Shown here: positions 4,355 through 10,685 of the stretch, in pieces
How positions within the stretch are numbered: position 1 is the stretch's first letter
Layout of the letters: the number at the start of each line of letters is the position of its first letter
Assembly (NCBI GenBank): GCA_028823855.1
Contig: JAPPFL010000065.1
Coordinates: forward strand, 62,001 to 126,000
DNA from: Albidovulum sp.
GTDB taxonomy: Bacteria > Pseudomonadota > Alphaproteobacteria > Rhodobacterales > Rhodobacteraceae
DNA: 64,000 nucleotides
Reading direction: 5' to 3'
Program-made: the position numbers and the translations under genes
Notes under the pieces: model-generated
Databases searched by the model: none
What the model was told of the DNA's origin: nothing
The model's input: only the letters and a program-made list of their open reading frames with translations

Positions 4355-5005
4355 ATGGCCTTATTCGCCAGAAATAAACTCAAGTTGCCTGCGCCCGACG
4401 CGGCTCTTCCGGGGCGCCCGGACGCCTTGCCTACCGCATTGAACCATTTCGTCAACGGACGGCCGCTCGCAGGTCCGTTTCCGGAGGGTATGGAGCTTGC
4501 AATGTTCGGAATGGGCTGTTTTTGGGGCGTTGAAAAATATTTTTGGCAGTTCAGCGGTGTCTGGGTAACTGCGGTAGGATACGCGGGCGGGTTTACGCCG
4601 AATCCTACATATCGGGAAGTTTGCACTGGCATGACAGGGCACAACGAGGTTGTACGTCTGGCATTCGATCCCAAATCTGTTTCGTATTCGTCGCTGCTTC
4701 GGGCTTTCTGGGAAAATCATGATCCGACGCAGGGAATGCGCCAAGGAAATGATTTTGGCACCCAGTACCGGTCGGGAATTTACGCATACGGGGATGAGCA
4801 ATTAATGCAGGCGCAGGCTAGCCTAGAAGAATATTCCGGAGCATTAGCCGAAGCCGGATACGGTCGGGTAACGACAGAGATCGACTCCGCTCCCGAATTT
4901 TACTTTGCCGAAGACTACCATCAGCAATATCTCGCGAAAAATCCGTTCGGATACTGCGATATGCGAGGGACCGGCGTATCGTGCGGCTCGCGAGCTTCAA
5001 GCTGA
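4355..5005 (+). CDS. msrA: Peptide methionine (S)-S-oxide reductase
   Basis: A 216-aa MsrA, the longer form with an N-terminal extension of about 45 residues (E. coli-like). The nucleophilic cysteine lies in GCFWG (Cys55). The family signatures [17 protein letters not shown] and [26 protein letters not shown] are all present, and the resolving cysteines are in the C-terminal [17 protein letters not shown]. The enzyme reduces methionine-S-sulfoxide in proteins using thioredoxin and repairs oxidative damage. I chose ATG 4355 over the upstream frame opening at 4295 because an AAG-rich weak ribosome-binding site (CGGAAG) precedes it and family alignment begins nearby. It is followed 31 bases later by prmA, suggesting a two-gene transcript. 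Confidence 0.95.
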
Positions 5006-5036
5006 GGCAGCAGGTCCGCTGATCCGGCTGCGGCCG

Positions 5037-5936
5037 ATGGTTGCCAATGGCAAGCGATGCTTCCATGCTTGGACGAGAATCTCTGGCGAGGCCAAAGCGA
5101 GGACCCTAGCCGAAGGGCTCGAAAACATTCAGCCGCCTCCATTGGGAACCGAGATCATGGTTCTTCAAGAGATGTCGGATCGATGGGAGGTAGGGGCATA
5201 CTTCTCCGCTAGCCCCGATCCGGCGGGATTGAGCCTCTTGTCAACATGCATGGATGCCGAAGAATTTCAGTTGATTGAAATTCGAGACGTCGACTGGGTC
5301 GGGAAATATCGCAGCGCAACGAAGCCTGTTCTCGCCGGTCGATTTACGATTCGCGGAAACTCTGAATATATCGATTCCCATTCGGCCGAGAGAAATTCGA
5401 TCGTGATCGATTCCAGCATGGCATTCGGAACTGGCAGGCACGGCTCGACCAAGGGCTGCATATGCGCCCTCGAATCTCTTGCCCATCGAGGATTCGAACC
5501 GAAAAAAGTCGCGGACATAGGCTGCGGATCGGGAATTTTGTCGATTTCGGCCGCGAAAATCTGGCCGTCGTCTAAAATCGTCGCAAGCGATCTGGATCCT
5601 AATTCGGTAGAAGTCGCAAAATCGAACCTTAAGTACAATCGCGTCGAGCGTCGGGTCTCAGTTTTCGAGTGCGCCGGCATGAATCATGATACGCATCTGC
5701 TCGCTTCGCCATATGATTTGTTGCTGGCCAACATCCTCCTGGAGCCGTTACTGAGCATCGTACCGCGCGCTTCCGAACTATTGGCATTCGACGCGCGCGC
5801 GGTGCTATCCGGCATAGCGGCGAATGAATCAAGTCGGCTGCGAGAGGCGTGCGATTCAGAGGGACTTGCTCAAACGGATGAAATAGATTTTGAAGGCTGG
5901 ATCACGCTCGTGTTCCGCAAGCGCGTAAGCGGCTAA
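5037..5936 (+). CDS. prmA: Ribosomal protein L11 methyltransferase (3' end rewritten by IS insertion)
   Basis: A PrmA of about 299 aa that trimethylates ribosomal protein L11 using S-adenosylmethionine. Visible signatures are AFGTGRHGST (residues 129-138), the SAM-binding motif I DIGCGSGILSISAA (160-173) and ANILLEPL. The start is uncertain: the frame is open back to 4905 inside msrA, and ATG 5037 gives the length nearest to relatives, but no clear ribosome-binding site is seen. The final residues are unusual. The natural end FRKR is followed by V-S-G-stop encoded by GTAAGCGGCTAA, which is the first 12 bases of an IS66 terminal repeat (5925 onward). The displaced original end probably reads F-R-K-R-H-stop, because GCAAGCGGCATTGA occurs at 9004-9017. 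Function should be intact. Confidence 0.9.
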   Translation: MVANGKRCFHAWTRISGEAKARTLAEGLENIQPPPLGTEIMVLQEMSDRWEVGAYFSASPDPAGLSLLSTCMDAEEFQLIEIRDVDWVGKYRSATKPVLAGRFTIRGNSEYIDSHSAERNSIVIDSSMAFGTGRHGSTKGCICALESLAHRGFEPKKVADIGCGSGILSISAAKIWPSSKIVASDLDPNSVEVAKSNLKYNRVERRVSVFECAGMNHDTHLLASPYDLLLANILLEPLLSIVPRASELLAFDARAVLSGIAANESSRLREACDSEGLAQTDEIDFEGWITLVFRKRVSG

Positions 5937-6022
5937 TTTACGACGTCCCGATTTTAGGTTGAATCGGGTCTGGCTCGGCCGATACCTTCGAGCCGCAATA
6001 TTTTCGGCAAGGAGGGATTGTC

Positions 6023-6364
6023 ATGAACGTTCCGGCGCGGGTCGCCGAAGAGCCCGTTATCCGAAGTGCCGAGGAGTAGCGCGAGATCGTCGAGAATTTC
6101 GAGCGGGAGGGCGTCACCGCCGCCGCCTACTGCGAGGTGCGAGGCCCGGGGCCGCGGACGCTGCTGCGCTGGCGGCGGCTCGCTCGCGAGGACGAGCGCT
6201 CTCCCGCGTTTGTTTCGCTCGGCCCGGCTCCGGCGGATGCGGCCGCGCGGAACGCAGCCTTCCCCGCCATCAGCCTTCACGAGCGCCAGCCCGCGCTGCC
6301 GCTCGGCGGACGCGTTCTCCTTCGCGGACCATGCCCGCGCCCCGCAACGCGGGACGAGGCCTGA
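6023..6364 (+). pseudogene. IS66 accessory protein TnpA, interrupted
   Basis: From ATG 6023 the frame reads MNVPARVAEEP and is stopped by TAG 6077-6079. It then continues as REIVENFEREGVTAAAYCEV and RTLLRWRRLAREDERSPAFVSL, the helix-turn-helix style core of IS66 orfA. A good ribosome-binding site (AAGGAGGG, about 6010-6017) precedes it. The C-terminal part loses similarity after about 6290 and the tnpB and tnpC genes are missing, so this is the left remnant of an IS66 copy. It matches, at DNA level, the inverted copy at about 8640-8960. Confidence 0.75.
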
Positions 6365-6368
6365 CGGG

Positions 6369-8036
6369 ATGGGCCGCTACCGCGTCGGCCTCGAACTCGA
6401 CACGCTACGCGGCGACTTCTTCGGAGGCGTCACCTCCATGGTGGTGGCTCTGCCGGTCGCCCTTGGCTTTGGCATCGCGTCCGGGATGGGTGCGGCTGCC
6501 GGGCTCTACGGCGCGATCGCGGTCGGCTTCTTCGCGTCCGTGTTCGGCGGTACGCGCTCCCAGATATCCGGTCCGACGGCACCCATGACCGTCGCGATGG
6601 CGGTCGTGCTCACCAGCCATGCGTCCAGCCTCGCCGAGGCTCTGACGGTCGTTGTCCTCGCAGGCTTCCTGCAGGTCCTTCTGGGCGTCTCGAAGATCGG
6701 CCGCTTCGTGGCCTACACGCCTCATGTCGTCGTGTCCGGCTTCATGTCCGGCATCGGCGTCATCATCATCCTGATGCAGTCGCTTCCGCTGCTTGGCGCC
6801 TCGGGCGCGACGGGGGGGCCGATGGGCGCTGCACGTGCGCTCCCGGCAGCCGTCAGCGGCATCGACGCCGGCGCATTCGCCATCGGCGCGACCACGCTCG
6901 CCGTGGGGTTCCTCTGGCCGCAAAGGCTGTCACGGTTCGCGCCGGGTCCCCTCGCGGCGCTGGCCGCCGGAACGGCCCTAGGCGTGCTGTGGTTCACCGA
7001 GGCTACGGTCATCGGTCCGATCCCGACCGGATTGCCGACCCTGCAGATCGGCCTGCCGCCGGCCGGATTCCTGCTGCATGCGTTGCCGCCGGCCATCATC
7101 CTTGCGCTGCTGGGCTCAGTCGACAGCCTGCTGACCTCCCTTGTGGCAGACGCCATCACCGGCAGCCGTCACGACCCGGACAGGGAGCTGGTCGGCCAGG
7201 GCATCGGCAACATGGCCGCCGGGCTGATCGGCGCGCTCCCCGGCGCGGGAGCTACCATGGGCACGGTCGTCAACATCCGCTCCGGAGGATCGACGCCGGT
7301 GTCGGGCGTCGTGCGCGCACTTCTCTTGCTTGCCCTGGTGCTGGGCCTCGGACGGTACGTCGAGCCGATTCCGCTCGCGGCATTGGCAGGCGTGCTGGTC
7401 AAGGTCGGCTGGGACATCATCGACTGGCGCATGCTCGGGAGGCTTCACCGGCTTCGGCGCGAACACCTGGTCGTGATGCTGACAACGCTCTGCCTCACGG
7501 TGTTCGTGGACCTCATCACGGCGGTCGCCATCGGGCTGATCGCCGGGGGAATGGTACACGCCCGGCGGCTGGAACAGCTGGAGCTCGACAACGTGGTGTC
7601 CGTGCCGTTGCTGGAGGCGAAGCTCTTCGAGGGCGACGAGACGTTGAAGGACGTCGACCCGCTTGCGGCCCGGGTCGGCATGGTGGCGCTGAGGGGAACG
7701 CTGAGCGTCGCCTCGTCCCACAGGCTGGTCAGCGTGATCGGCTTGGACATAAAGCAGCACGAGGTCGTCATCTTCGACTTCTCGGACACCGTGTATGTGG
7801 ACGACAGCGTCGCCATGGTGATCGGGCGGCTTCTGGAACTCGCGGCCGGTTCCGGGACGGAATGCATCGTCACCGACCTCGACGGCGACGTGGCCGCGAC
7901 CCTGCACAGCCTCGACATCCTCGGCGGGGTGCCGTCCGTCCGGATCGTCGGCACGTTCGACGAGGCCCTTCGCGCCGCAAGGGAGGTGCTGGAGGCCGGC
8001 GCCGCCGGCCCGGTTAAACCGCAAGCGTCGTCCTGA
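6369..8036 (+). CDS. SulP family anion transporter with STAS domain
   Basis: A 555-aa protein starting MGRYRVGLELDTLRGDFFGG. The N-terminal transport domain has many membrane helices and the SulP pattern (VALPVALGFGIASGMGAAAGLYGA, then GGTRSQISGPTAPMTV). The cytoplasmic STAS domain occupies roughly the last 110 residues (ARVGMVALRGTLSVAS through VIFDFSDTVYVDDSVAMVI). Family members move sulfate, bicarbonate or other inorganic and organic anions; the substrate is not determinable here. The frame is open upstream to 6066, but those 101 residues are IS66 sequence read out of frame, so I use ATG 6369. The gene is GC-rich, with strong G/C third positions unlike its neighbours, and lies between IS66 copies, so horizontal arrival is likely. 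No ribosome-binding site of note precedes it. Confidence 0.9.
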   Translation: MGRYRVGLELDTLRGDFFGGVTSMVVALPVALGFGIASGMGAAAGLYGAIAVGFFASVFGGTRSQISGPTAPMTVAMAVVLTSHASSLAEALTVVVLAGFLQVLLGVSKIGRFVAYTPHVVVSGFMSGIGVIIILMQSLPLLGASGATGGPMGAARALPAAVSGIDAGAFAIGATTLAVGFLWPQRLSRFAPGPLAALAAGTALGVLWFTEATVIGPIPTGLPTLQIGLPPAGFLLHALPPAIILALLGSVDSLLTSLVADAITGSRHDPDRELVGQGIGNMAAGLIGALPGAGATMGTVVNIRSGGSTPVSGVVRALLLLALVLGLGRYVEPIPLAALAGVLVKVGWDIIDWRMLGRLHRLRREHLVVMLTTLCLTVFVDLITAVAIGLIAGGMVHARRLEQLELDNVVSVPLLEAKLFEGDETLKDVDPLAARVGMVALRGTLSVASSHRLVSVIGLDIKQHEVVIFDFSDTVYVDDSVAMVIGRLLELAAGSGTECIVTDLDGDVAATLHSLDILGGVPSVRIVGTFDEALRAAREVLEAGAAGPVKPQASS

Positions 8037-8323
8037 TCCCGTGCCGGATTTCGGGTTTACGGCGGGTTCGTTCCGGGGTCCGGGCCGAATGCCGGGGTCG
8101 GCGAATCCCGGCGCCGTAGCCGGTTCCCGCGCAGCGACGGGACGCATGAGGGCCGCCGGTCGCCCAGGACCCGAACTCGCCCTGCTTCGGGTCCGCGCCG
8201 GCAGCGGCCCGGCAGCCGGACAGTGTAAGCGGCTAAACTGGGACGTAGCGTTTTGTCGGGATTTTGCTGGATTCAGCCTGCGCCCGGCGGATCGGAGGCG
8301 CGGCATTCGACTCCGGTGCCGAG

Positions 8324-8617
8324 GTCCGACTTCATCGGATCGCCGGCGGACAGATCCTTCCACAGCCTCGGCACGGGCTCTTCGACGCGCGATGACGGGT
8401 GGACCGCGACCCGCTGGGGCACGTCCTCCAGGTAGCCGCCCGGCCCGAAACCGTTTATCTTCATCATCGTGCGGCGGCAGTCGGCGAAGACGAACCAGCC
8501 GCCCGAGACGATATCCGCGCCGAGCACGTTGCGCGCCAGCGCGGCCAGGCCGTCGAAGGACTTGCGCATGTCGGCGGGACGCGTCGACAGCCAGATGCCG
8601 CCGTCCGGAACGTTCGC
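8324..8617 (-). pseudogene. IS66 tnpB-tnpC deletion fusion
   Basis: The minus frame reads IWLSTRPADMRKSFDGLAAL, then VLGADIVSGGWFVFADCRRTMMK, the N-terminal half of IS66 orfB (TnpB). It passes without a stop into INGFGPGGYLEDVPQRVAVH and RVEEPVPRLWKDLSA, which matches the C-terminal tail of the IS66 transposase (pattern AYLADVLxRIADHPxxRxxELLPWxW). The join shows an in-frame internal deletion removing most of the DDE transposase. Confidence 0.65.
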
Positions 8618-8639
8618 CGGCATTCCCGCCTCCGAAGCC

Positions 8640-8897
8640 GGAGAACCATGCCGCCGCCGAGATCGAGCTCGGCGTCCCACGTGGCCGAATCCGCCGGAGC
8701 CAGGCCGAGTGAAACGAATGCGGGAACGCGCTCGTCCTCGCAGGCGAGCCGCCTCCGCCAGCGGAGCGGCGTCTTCGGCTTTAGGCCGCGCCCCTCGCAG
8801 TAGGCGGCGGCCGCGCCCTCCCGCTCGAAATCGTCGACGATTTCGCGCCGTTCCTCCGCGCTTCTGGCAGCGGCCCTTCGGCGACCCGCGCCGGAAT
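8640..8897 (-). pseudogene. IS66 accessory protein TnpA remnant
   Basis: Minus-strand sequence in two frames gives ERREIVDDFEREGAAAAYCE, LRWRR, DERVPAFVSLGLAP and the typical TnpA tail ELDLGGGMVLRLRRR. The former start codon is now ATT (GTCATTAAC against GTCATGAAC in the left copy at 6020-6028), and a frameshift separates the N-terminus from the core. Confidence 0.6.
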
Positions 8898-9072
8898 GTT
8901 AATGACAATCCCTCCTTGCCGAAAATATTCCGGCTTGAAGGTACCGGCCGGGGCGGACCCGGTTCAACCTAAAATCGGGACGTCGCAGTTTAGCCGCTTA
9001 CAGGCAAGCGGCATTGATCGAAGACAGGTTTTGATTGAATAGTTTTGGAATCGTCGCGAATTCGCGAGCAGG

Positions 9073-9312
9073 TCATTTCTCAGGCGTAACGTATTCGTAT
9101 AAAATGCGGTCGGGATCCTCATGGGGCTCCATTCGCGAATACGCGGCCAGTTCCTCGGTCGGAAGAAGAGGCAAATATTCGATAGAATCGCGAGCGCGTT
9201 CTTCTTGGGTTGGACTTGTCATGATTGAGCAACCGCCCGCCAGCGCGAACGATACGCCCGCGAATGCACCAATGCAGATCCACCGAACAAATTCATTCGA
9301 GAAAATTCTCAA
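9073..9312 (-). CDS. Small predicted lipoprotein
   Basis: A 79-residue product if TTG 9312 is used (RIFSNEFVRWICIGAFAGVS then FALAGGCS). A basic-hydrophobic leader ends in the lipobox LAGGC, so the mature protein would begin at Cys and be tethered to a membrane. The mature part (about 50 residues) is acidic, with EYLPLLPTEELAAYSRMEPHEDPDRILYEYVTPEK. No in-frame ATG lies close to the signal sequence; the ATG at 9453 is inside glyA. It lies 71 bases downstream of glyA on the same strand and may be cotranscribed. Function unknown. The call rests on the signal sequence and composition. Confidence 0.5.
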   Translation of the reverse strand: MRIFSNEFVRWICIGAFAGVSFALAGGCSIMTSPTQEERARDSIEYLPLLPTEELAAYSRMEPHEDPDRILYEYVTPEK

Positions 9313-9383
9313 GGGCCTTGTGCCTGGATTGGCCGAAGCGCCGAGGTTGCCGCATTCCGGTATGGCGAAATTCCGAAACACGG

Positions 9384-10685
9384 CTATCCCAAAGGATTCT
9401 CGTAGATGGGGAATCGATCGCATAGGTCGACGGCTCTTTTCTTGACTACGCATTCGACCGATAGGTTCCCATCGGCGCCGTTTTCTCTAAGCCCATTGAC
9501 GACCTCGACGATCATTTCTCCGACCTGGCGGAATTCATTTCTGCCGAACCCTCGCGTCGTGCAAGCAGGAGTTCCCAAACGAATTCCCGACGTAACCGTC
9601 GGTTTTTCGGGATCGAAAGGAATGCCATTCTTGTTGCATGTGATATTCGCTCGCCCCAGCGCGCTCTCGGTTTGGTTGCCTTTAACTCCCATAGGGCGGA
9701 GGTCTACGAGCATGACATGCGTATCGGTTCCTCCCGTCACGATTTCCAGGCCACCGGATTGAAGCGATTCCGCAAGTTCCGCGGCGTTGGCGACGACTTG
9801 CTTGACGTACTCTCGAAATTCCGGCCGAAGCGCTTCTCCGAACGCGACCGCTTTCGCAGCGATAACATGCATGAGCGGACCGCCCTGAATTCCCGGAAAA
9901 ATTGCGGAATTCACTTTTTTGGCGATATCCGGATCGTTTGTCAGCACCATGCCTCCTCGCGGACCGCGCAATGTCTTGTGAGTCGTCGTCGTGGCGACAT
10001 CCGCAAACGGGAACGGCGACGGATGTACTCCGCCGGCGACCAGGCCGGCGAAATGGGCCATGTCCACCATAAGCCAAGCGCCCACATCTCGAGCAATGGA
10101 ATGAAATCTTTCAAAGTCGATCAACCGAGGAACCGCCGAGCCCCCGGCGATGATGAGCCTCGGCTTGTGCCTGCCTGCCAACTCTTGAATCTGATCGTAG
10201 TCGATTTGGCAATCCTGCCTCCTAACGCCGTATTGAACGGCGTGGAACCACTTTCCAGATTGATTGGGACGGGCGCCGTGAGTCAGATGACCGCCCGAAG
10301 CCAGATCCATGCCTAGAATCGTGTCGCCGGGCTTAAGCAGCGCGTTGAAAACGCCCTGATTGGCCTGGCTTCCGGAATGAGGCTGCACATTCGCGTAGTC
10401 GCAGCCGAATAGCGAGCAGGCGCGCTCGACTGCGAGGATTTCGGCGGTGTCGACGAATTGGCACCCTCCGTAATACCGCTTGCCGGGGTAGCCTTCCGCG
10501 TATTTGTTCGTAAGAACGGAACCCGCGGCCTGGAGGGTAGCTCGCGAAACGATGTTTTCCGACGCTATTAGTTCGATTTCGTCGCTTTGCCTTGCCAGTT
10601 CCATGGCAACGGAGCGATAGACTTCCGGATCGCTGAATTGCAATTCGTCGGAAAAAATGCTCGCCTGACTGGATTCTGTCCTCAT
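9384..10685 (-). CDS. glyA: Serine hydroxymethyltransferase
   Basis: A 433-aa PLP enzyme that converts serine and tetrahydrofolate to glycine and methylene-tetrahydrofolate, the main source of one-carbon units. Signatures: [41 protein letters not shown] and the PLP-binding lysine in [14 protein letters not shown] (Lys237). The start is ATG 10685, preceded by a strong GGAGG; an upstream ATG at 10742 would add 19 arginine-rich residues and lacks support. One oddity: family members usually read AGxSAYPR near residue 181, and here it is [11 protein letters not shown], a conservative loss of Tyr. It is divergent from nadK across a 317-base spacer. Confidence 0.96.

Follow-up and report, generated by a model that had tools for sequence, protein, structure and literature searches.

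The stretch analysed here, hereafter the window, comprises 64,000 nucleotides of contig JAPPFL010000065.1 (positions 62,001 to 126,000) and carries a gene for a SulP-type anion transporter between two remnants of insertion sequences (ISs) of the IS66 family, the whole unit lying in the last codons of prmA, which encodes ribosomal protein L11 methyltransferase (Table 1). The prmA product matches PF06325 (E 1.7e-47), and the SulP gene, which is the sole long intact gene between the two ends, follows prmA on the same strand at a distance of 430 bp. The G+C content was about 54% in the flanks and 66-72% within the unit, with a jump at both borders, which also carry inverted-repeat arms of 140 nt (5915-6054 and 8872-9011; 88% complementary) with further blocks inward. 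The tip GTAAGCGGCTAA was found exactly at both outer ends and once more at 8225-8236 on the plus strand, these being its only mismatch-free copies in the window. An Rfam scan of 5000-10000 gave no match. Overall, 5925-9001 is very probably a compound (composite) transposon, consisting of two defective, inverted IS66 copies around a captured SulP gene.

Table 1 Features of the prmA and SulP locus (positions in the window)
Feature	Position	Strand	Remarks
prmA, ribosomal protein L11 methyltransferase	4983-5936	+	Final three codons and stop (VSG-stop) come from the IS66 tip
Target direct repeat, left copy	5917-5924	+	GCAAGCGC
Compound unit	5925-9001		Two IS66-derived ends around the SulP gene; ~3.1 kb
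Outer terminal inverted repeat tip, left type	5925-5936	+	GTAAGCGGCTAA, exact match
Left IS66 copy	5925-6250	+	Left end only; degraded tnpA start with premature TAG; right part gone
Captured segment	6245-8095	+	89-90% DNA identity to contigs of Boseongicola metagenome-assembled genomes (MAGs); CGCGG shared at the left IS66 junction
SulP/BicA-like anion transporter gene, intact	6369-8036	+	555 amino acids; Pfam Sulfate_transp and STAS domains
GC-rich 128 bp between captured segment and right IS66 copy	8097-8224		
Right IS66 copy, internally deleted	8225-9001	-	tnpA/tnpB remnants; left end outermost (9001), right end innermost (8225)
Outer terminal inverted repeat tip, left type	8990-9001	-	GTAAGCGGCTAA, exact match
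Extra bases AG	9002-9003		Between right tip and direct repeat
Target direct repeat, right copy	9004-9011	+	GCAAGCGG; with the next bases, displaced R-K-R-H-stop of prmA

The sole genome of the same genus (G001, L022) has the genes MFS-msrA-prmA-lipoprotein-glyA in an order identical to that of the window and without the insert, and its prmA ends in LVFRKPK-stop. When the flanks of the window unit were joined with one copy of the direct repeat kept, the prmA frame ended in LVFRKRH-stop and its length equalled that of the relative, so that the bases from 9004 onwards represent the displaced native end of the gene. A previous sequence-only reading had proposed that the prmA frame ends in V-S-G-stop on an IS66 tip and that the natural end of the gene follows the unit, and had named the comparison with a relative beforehand as a check; we confirmed all of this. 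The relative has an empty site, a native VFRKPK-stop and, with a best match of 25% identity, nothing orthologous to SulP, so that neither of the two results named there as contrary evidence was obtained. The SulP gene, the IS66 remnants and the contrast in base composition that it had described were likewise recovered. The empty site and the direct repeat together point to a unit that moved as one piece.

For PrmA, the insertion would have meant the loss of the last residue, H, and the gain of V-S-G, the loss being limited to H since a TAA lies in frame in the tip. Since the C-terminal tails of prmA products vary across the family, this exchange is probably harmless. A left tip entered from a gene terminates each of the three frames, with 0, 3 or 11 codons read before the stop, so that an insertion near a gene end should be mild in any frame. 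The IS66 tips in the window begin with GTAAGCG, as is characteristic of the family (tips starting GTAAGCGT are given in PMC12888890), and the initial GTAA would stop one frame immediately in any element with such a tip.

Compared with its own genome, the unit gave 74 matches, which correspond to a left-end module (5925-6255, plus the stretch inward of 9001) and to one for the right end (8225-8443). A 2,128-bp copy in the same genome (C79:43318-45445) was used as the IS66 reference. The left copy of the unit corresponds to reference positions 1-326 and shares 88.7% identity with the left end of this reference, while the right copy matches only reference positions 1-572 (at 9001-8431) and 1901-2126 (at 8452-8227) and is thus an IS66 that lacks its middle. 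A TnpB piece was recognised in the right copy (PF05717, score 40.3 vs. a cut-off of 26.6), and beyond tnpA/tnpB remnants the window holds a tnpC tail, both copies being without most of tnpC. As in an inverted compound transposon, two copies of the same IS flank the cargo with the same end outermost on both sides (left ends at both 5925 and 9001, with the right end at 8225 lying inside). In such a transposon at least one copy encodes a transposase; here neither does, and the unit would be the decayed remains of one.

An alternative explanation is a passenger-bearing element of the ISPa75-fosZ type (tIS66), that is, one IS with cargo into which a second IS66 was later nested at the right. Passenger genes are known from IS66 elements whose tips are of the GTAAGCG type (PMC12888890). 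However, the passenger of ISPa75 lies downstream of the DDE transposase gene in one left-right pair, whereas in the window both outer tips are of the left type, the right tip at 8225 is internal and no full tnpABC accompanies the cargo. The same architecture was moreover found, with perfect 8-bp repeats, in a second unit of the same genome, and we therefore consider a tIS66 element very unlikely.

This second inverted IS66 compound unit (G000:C79:43318-48527; L144:1319-6528) has exact 8-bp repeats GGATCAAT and two outer tips of the left type. It was found by pairing all tips in the fetched regions and was the sole pair with a perfect 8-bp repeat, the chance of which is 3.5e-5 for a given tip pair. 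Its IS66 copy is longer but carries a frameshift, its cargo gene encodes 599 aa with a HipA C-terminal domain, and a short left end in reverse orientation completes it; as a mirror image of the window unit, it supports the idea that two left ends can work as one transposon. A second copy of the HipA-like cargo (G000:C37:20518-22314; L193) is 77% identical in DNA and 76% in protein, contains two stops and is without IS66 tips; the cargo of the second unit may thus be of local and not of foreign origin. The genome of the same genus has right-end fragments of IS66 ~1 kb from another HipA-like gene (G001:C20:39368-41518; 33% identity), which hints that such genes and IS66 relics are associated repeatedly.

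The host genome contains ~30 degraded IS66 copies, single relics being common, and no intact transposase of this IS66 group was seen in it; the PF03050 DDE transposase domain is present elsewhere in the genome as fragments, the best of which covers positions 82-282 of 284. The group looks extinct or nearly so in this genome, barring an intact copy lost in assembly gaps. Contigs C3, C5, C29, C47, C65, C9 and C11 terminate in or near IS66 copies. A broader and rather doubtful proposal is that defective IS66 units with two outward left ends are a recurring gene-capture vehicle in the genus, carrying single genes (SulP, HipA-like), partly from other bacteria, which would settle mildly at gene ends because the left tip stops any frame within 11 codons.

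The SulP gene of the window matched only itself in its genome, and in 35 other genera of the family the best matches to its product did not exceed 38% identity. In Boseongicola MAGs, by contrast with these, the protein is 91-93% identical, and the captured segment aligned by blastn with two Boseongicola MAG contigs at 89.6% (6240-8090 vs. L061) and 89.1% (6247-8096 vs. L062). In a tree, the window SulP and three Boseongicola sequences were grouped with a support of 100/100. The glyA and prmA proteins of the Boseongicola genomes with this SulP are 64% and 38-39% identical to those of the host, respectively. Plasmid sequences gave distant SulP matches only (best 40%). The nearest match of the host glyA in plasmid and chromid records is from Ruegeria (74%), which makes a Rhodobacteraceae-like alphaproteobacterium the probable host. 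A donor from another phylum, considered at first, was therefore dropped; the transfer was probably one between genera, perhaps inside one family or from a neighbouring family.

An explanation in which SulP was already native between prmA and glyA, with two unrelated IS66 insertions or relics beside it, would account for the 16% difference between the two left ends and agrees with the frequency of single IS66 relics in the genome. We regard it as highly improbable, since the same-genus genome has no SulP orthologue at this locus or elsewhere, the prmA end is restored by joining across the whole unit and not across either IS, and the remainder of the genome is far more distant from Boseongicola than SulP is.

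The two Boseongicola MAGs share the SulP segment at L061:4730-6719 and L062:4730-6707 with different flanks and with sharp ends near the limits of homology to the window; they align with each other over nearly the same stretch as the captured segment. SulP may therefore move within Boseongicola by another route. Some of the nearest SulP sequences carry the bin labels IRC, RHO and COS, which appear to resemble sponge species of PMC8163846 and suggest a sponge setting for the relatives only.

Base changes in SulP were polarised with two donors and two outgroups. The window branch showed 35 GC>AT and 7 AT>GC changes, compared to 11 and 15, respectively, on the donor branch, an excess that fits residence in a lower-GC genome and speaks against contamination. 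Of the 46 changes on the window branch, 31 were synonymous and 15 nonsynonymous, against a neutral expectation of 17.3 and 28.7 under the same spectrum (omega ~0.29), as would be expected if a functional gene had aged in a host of lower G+C content. The tnpA remnant beside SulP contains a stop and serves as a built-in contrast. An assembly chimera or bin contamination, in which a SulP fragment of the Boseongicola type became attached to this genome through IS66 repeats, is hardly credible: the assembly consists of 83 contigs with an estimated contamination of 3.36%, and several contigs terminate at IS66 copies, but both flanks belong to one locus by synteny, the IS66 parts of the unit are ~7-16% off the other copies in the genome and thus too different to easily confuse an assembler, SulP is identical to no sampled donor and has a GC>AT bias that matches the host, and the repeat and the restored stop fit a real insertion.

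Several observations weigh against a compound transposon that brought SulP into this genome. The direct repeats described in the sequence-only reading do flank the unit, but they are weaker than it had claimed, as the two copies match at 7/8 positions and need a 2-bp shift; its right border at 9003 had to be moved to 9001, where the transposon stops, because the AG at 9002-9003 lies outside both the tip and the direct repeat. The two left ends of the unit are 84% identical and are not fresh twin copies. The IS66 parts of the unit had no match at 80 SulP loci, and the 128 bp at 8097-8224 had no meaningful match there; IS66 searches in seven donor-type genomes gave one weak match only and found no IS66-adjacent SulP. 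As the IS66 parts are unmatched at SulP loci, the exact donor arrangement is unsampled, and some of the GC>AT changes may have arisen before the transfer, in such a donor. Regarding the repeats, a 7/8 match with such shifts arises in 0.4% of random site pairs, and the C/G difference between the copies is silent in an arginine codon. In favour of the compound transposon, an 8-bp target duplication is listed for the IS66 elements ISPpa5a and ISPpa7 (PMC3281130). The ordinary left-right IS66 pairs at C65:61-2239, C79:43318-45445, C52:194931-196215 and C18:66176-66447 had no 8-bp repeats and so gave no calibration for the 2-bp shift. The earlier description of the unit as composite holds for its two inverted IS66 copies; as both are broken, the unit is unable to move itself now, and movement would need a transposase from elsewhere.

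For the compound transposon, we propose that the donor was an unsampled relative of Boseongicola-type Rhodobacteraceae in which IS66 copies came to flank SulP, and that an IS66 transposase acting on the two outward left ends moved the whole segment. The unit would then have inserted among the final codons of prmA in the same direction as the gene, between two convergent genes and with an 8-bp duplication; both IS66 copies would have decayed afterwards, while selection retained SulP. The unit is old and defective, and it offers a clear case of a known type of gene transfer.

The SulP product exceeds the cut-offs for both domains that define the SulP/SLC26 family (PF00916, E 2.7e-76; PF01740, E 5.4e-7), and its nearest solved structure is BicA (6ki1; E 1.3e-98, 49% identity over the aligned part). 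Bicarbonate and sodium are bound in BicA by Thr69, Asp258, Thr262, Gly300, Ala301 and Thr302 (PMC13249358), and all six residues are conserved in the window SulP (the 6ki1 chain numbering is offset by one residue). Because of this conservation, we favour, with some reserve, a predicted BicA-type sodium-coupled bicarbonate importer, another anion being possible. A sense-strand promoter search in 5850-6420 gave no match, and SulP is probably transcribed with the msrA-prmA message or from the leftover tnpA leader.

Transfers of metabolic genes among marine bacteria are usually inferred statistically, long after the vehicle was lost. At this locus, a donor-like lineage, both ends of the vehicle, the landing site, the empty site in a relative and signs of later adaptation to host base composition are all visible. 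It also illustrates that an insertion into a conserved gene can be near-harmless when the IS66 tip provides the stop codon. Should the transporter import bicarbonate, an insertion sequence would have spread a trait for carbon acquisition in the manner of antibiotic resistance genes.

Tn10, with its IS10 copies, represents the inverted type of compound transposon. Similar to this type, the window unit has an inverted IS pair, the same end type outermost, cargo in between and a probable target duplication; unlike it, the unit is based on IS66, both copies are defective, their shared ends are 84% alike and the cargo is a transporter rather than a resistance gene. With the tIS66 element ISPa75-fosZ (PMC12888890) it shares IS66 tips beginning GTAAGCG and a single gene captured from another bacterium, but ISPa75 is one IS that has a left end, a right end and a full set of tnpA, tnpB and DDE transposase genes, whereas the window unit has two IS copies and left-type ends on both outer sides. 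The cargo resembles BicA of Synechocystis (6ki1; PMC13249358) in its membrane domain (49% identity where aligned), the six residues and the STAS domain, and differs in residing in an alphaproteobacterium-like host and in having a substrate predicted from sequence. Similar to the lateral transfers in sponge symbionts (PMC8163846), the locus would reflect gene flow between co-resident bacteria; those transfers were called computationally, with no vehicle described, whereas here the vehicle and its landing site are visible.

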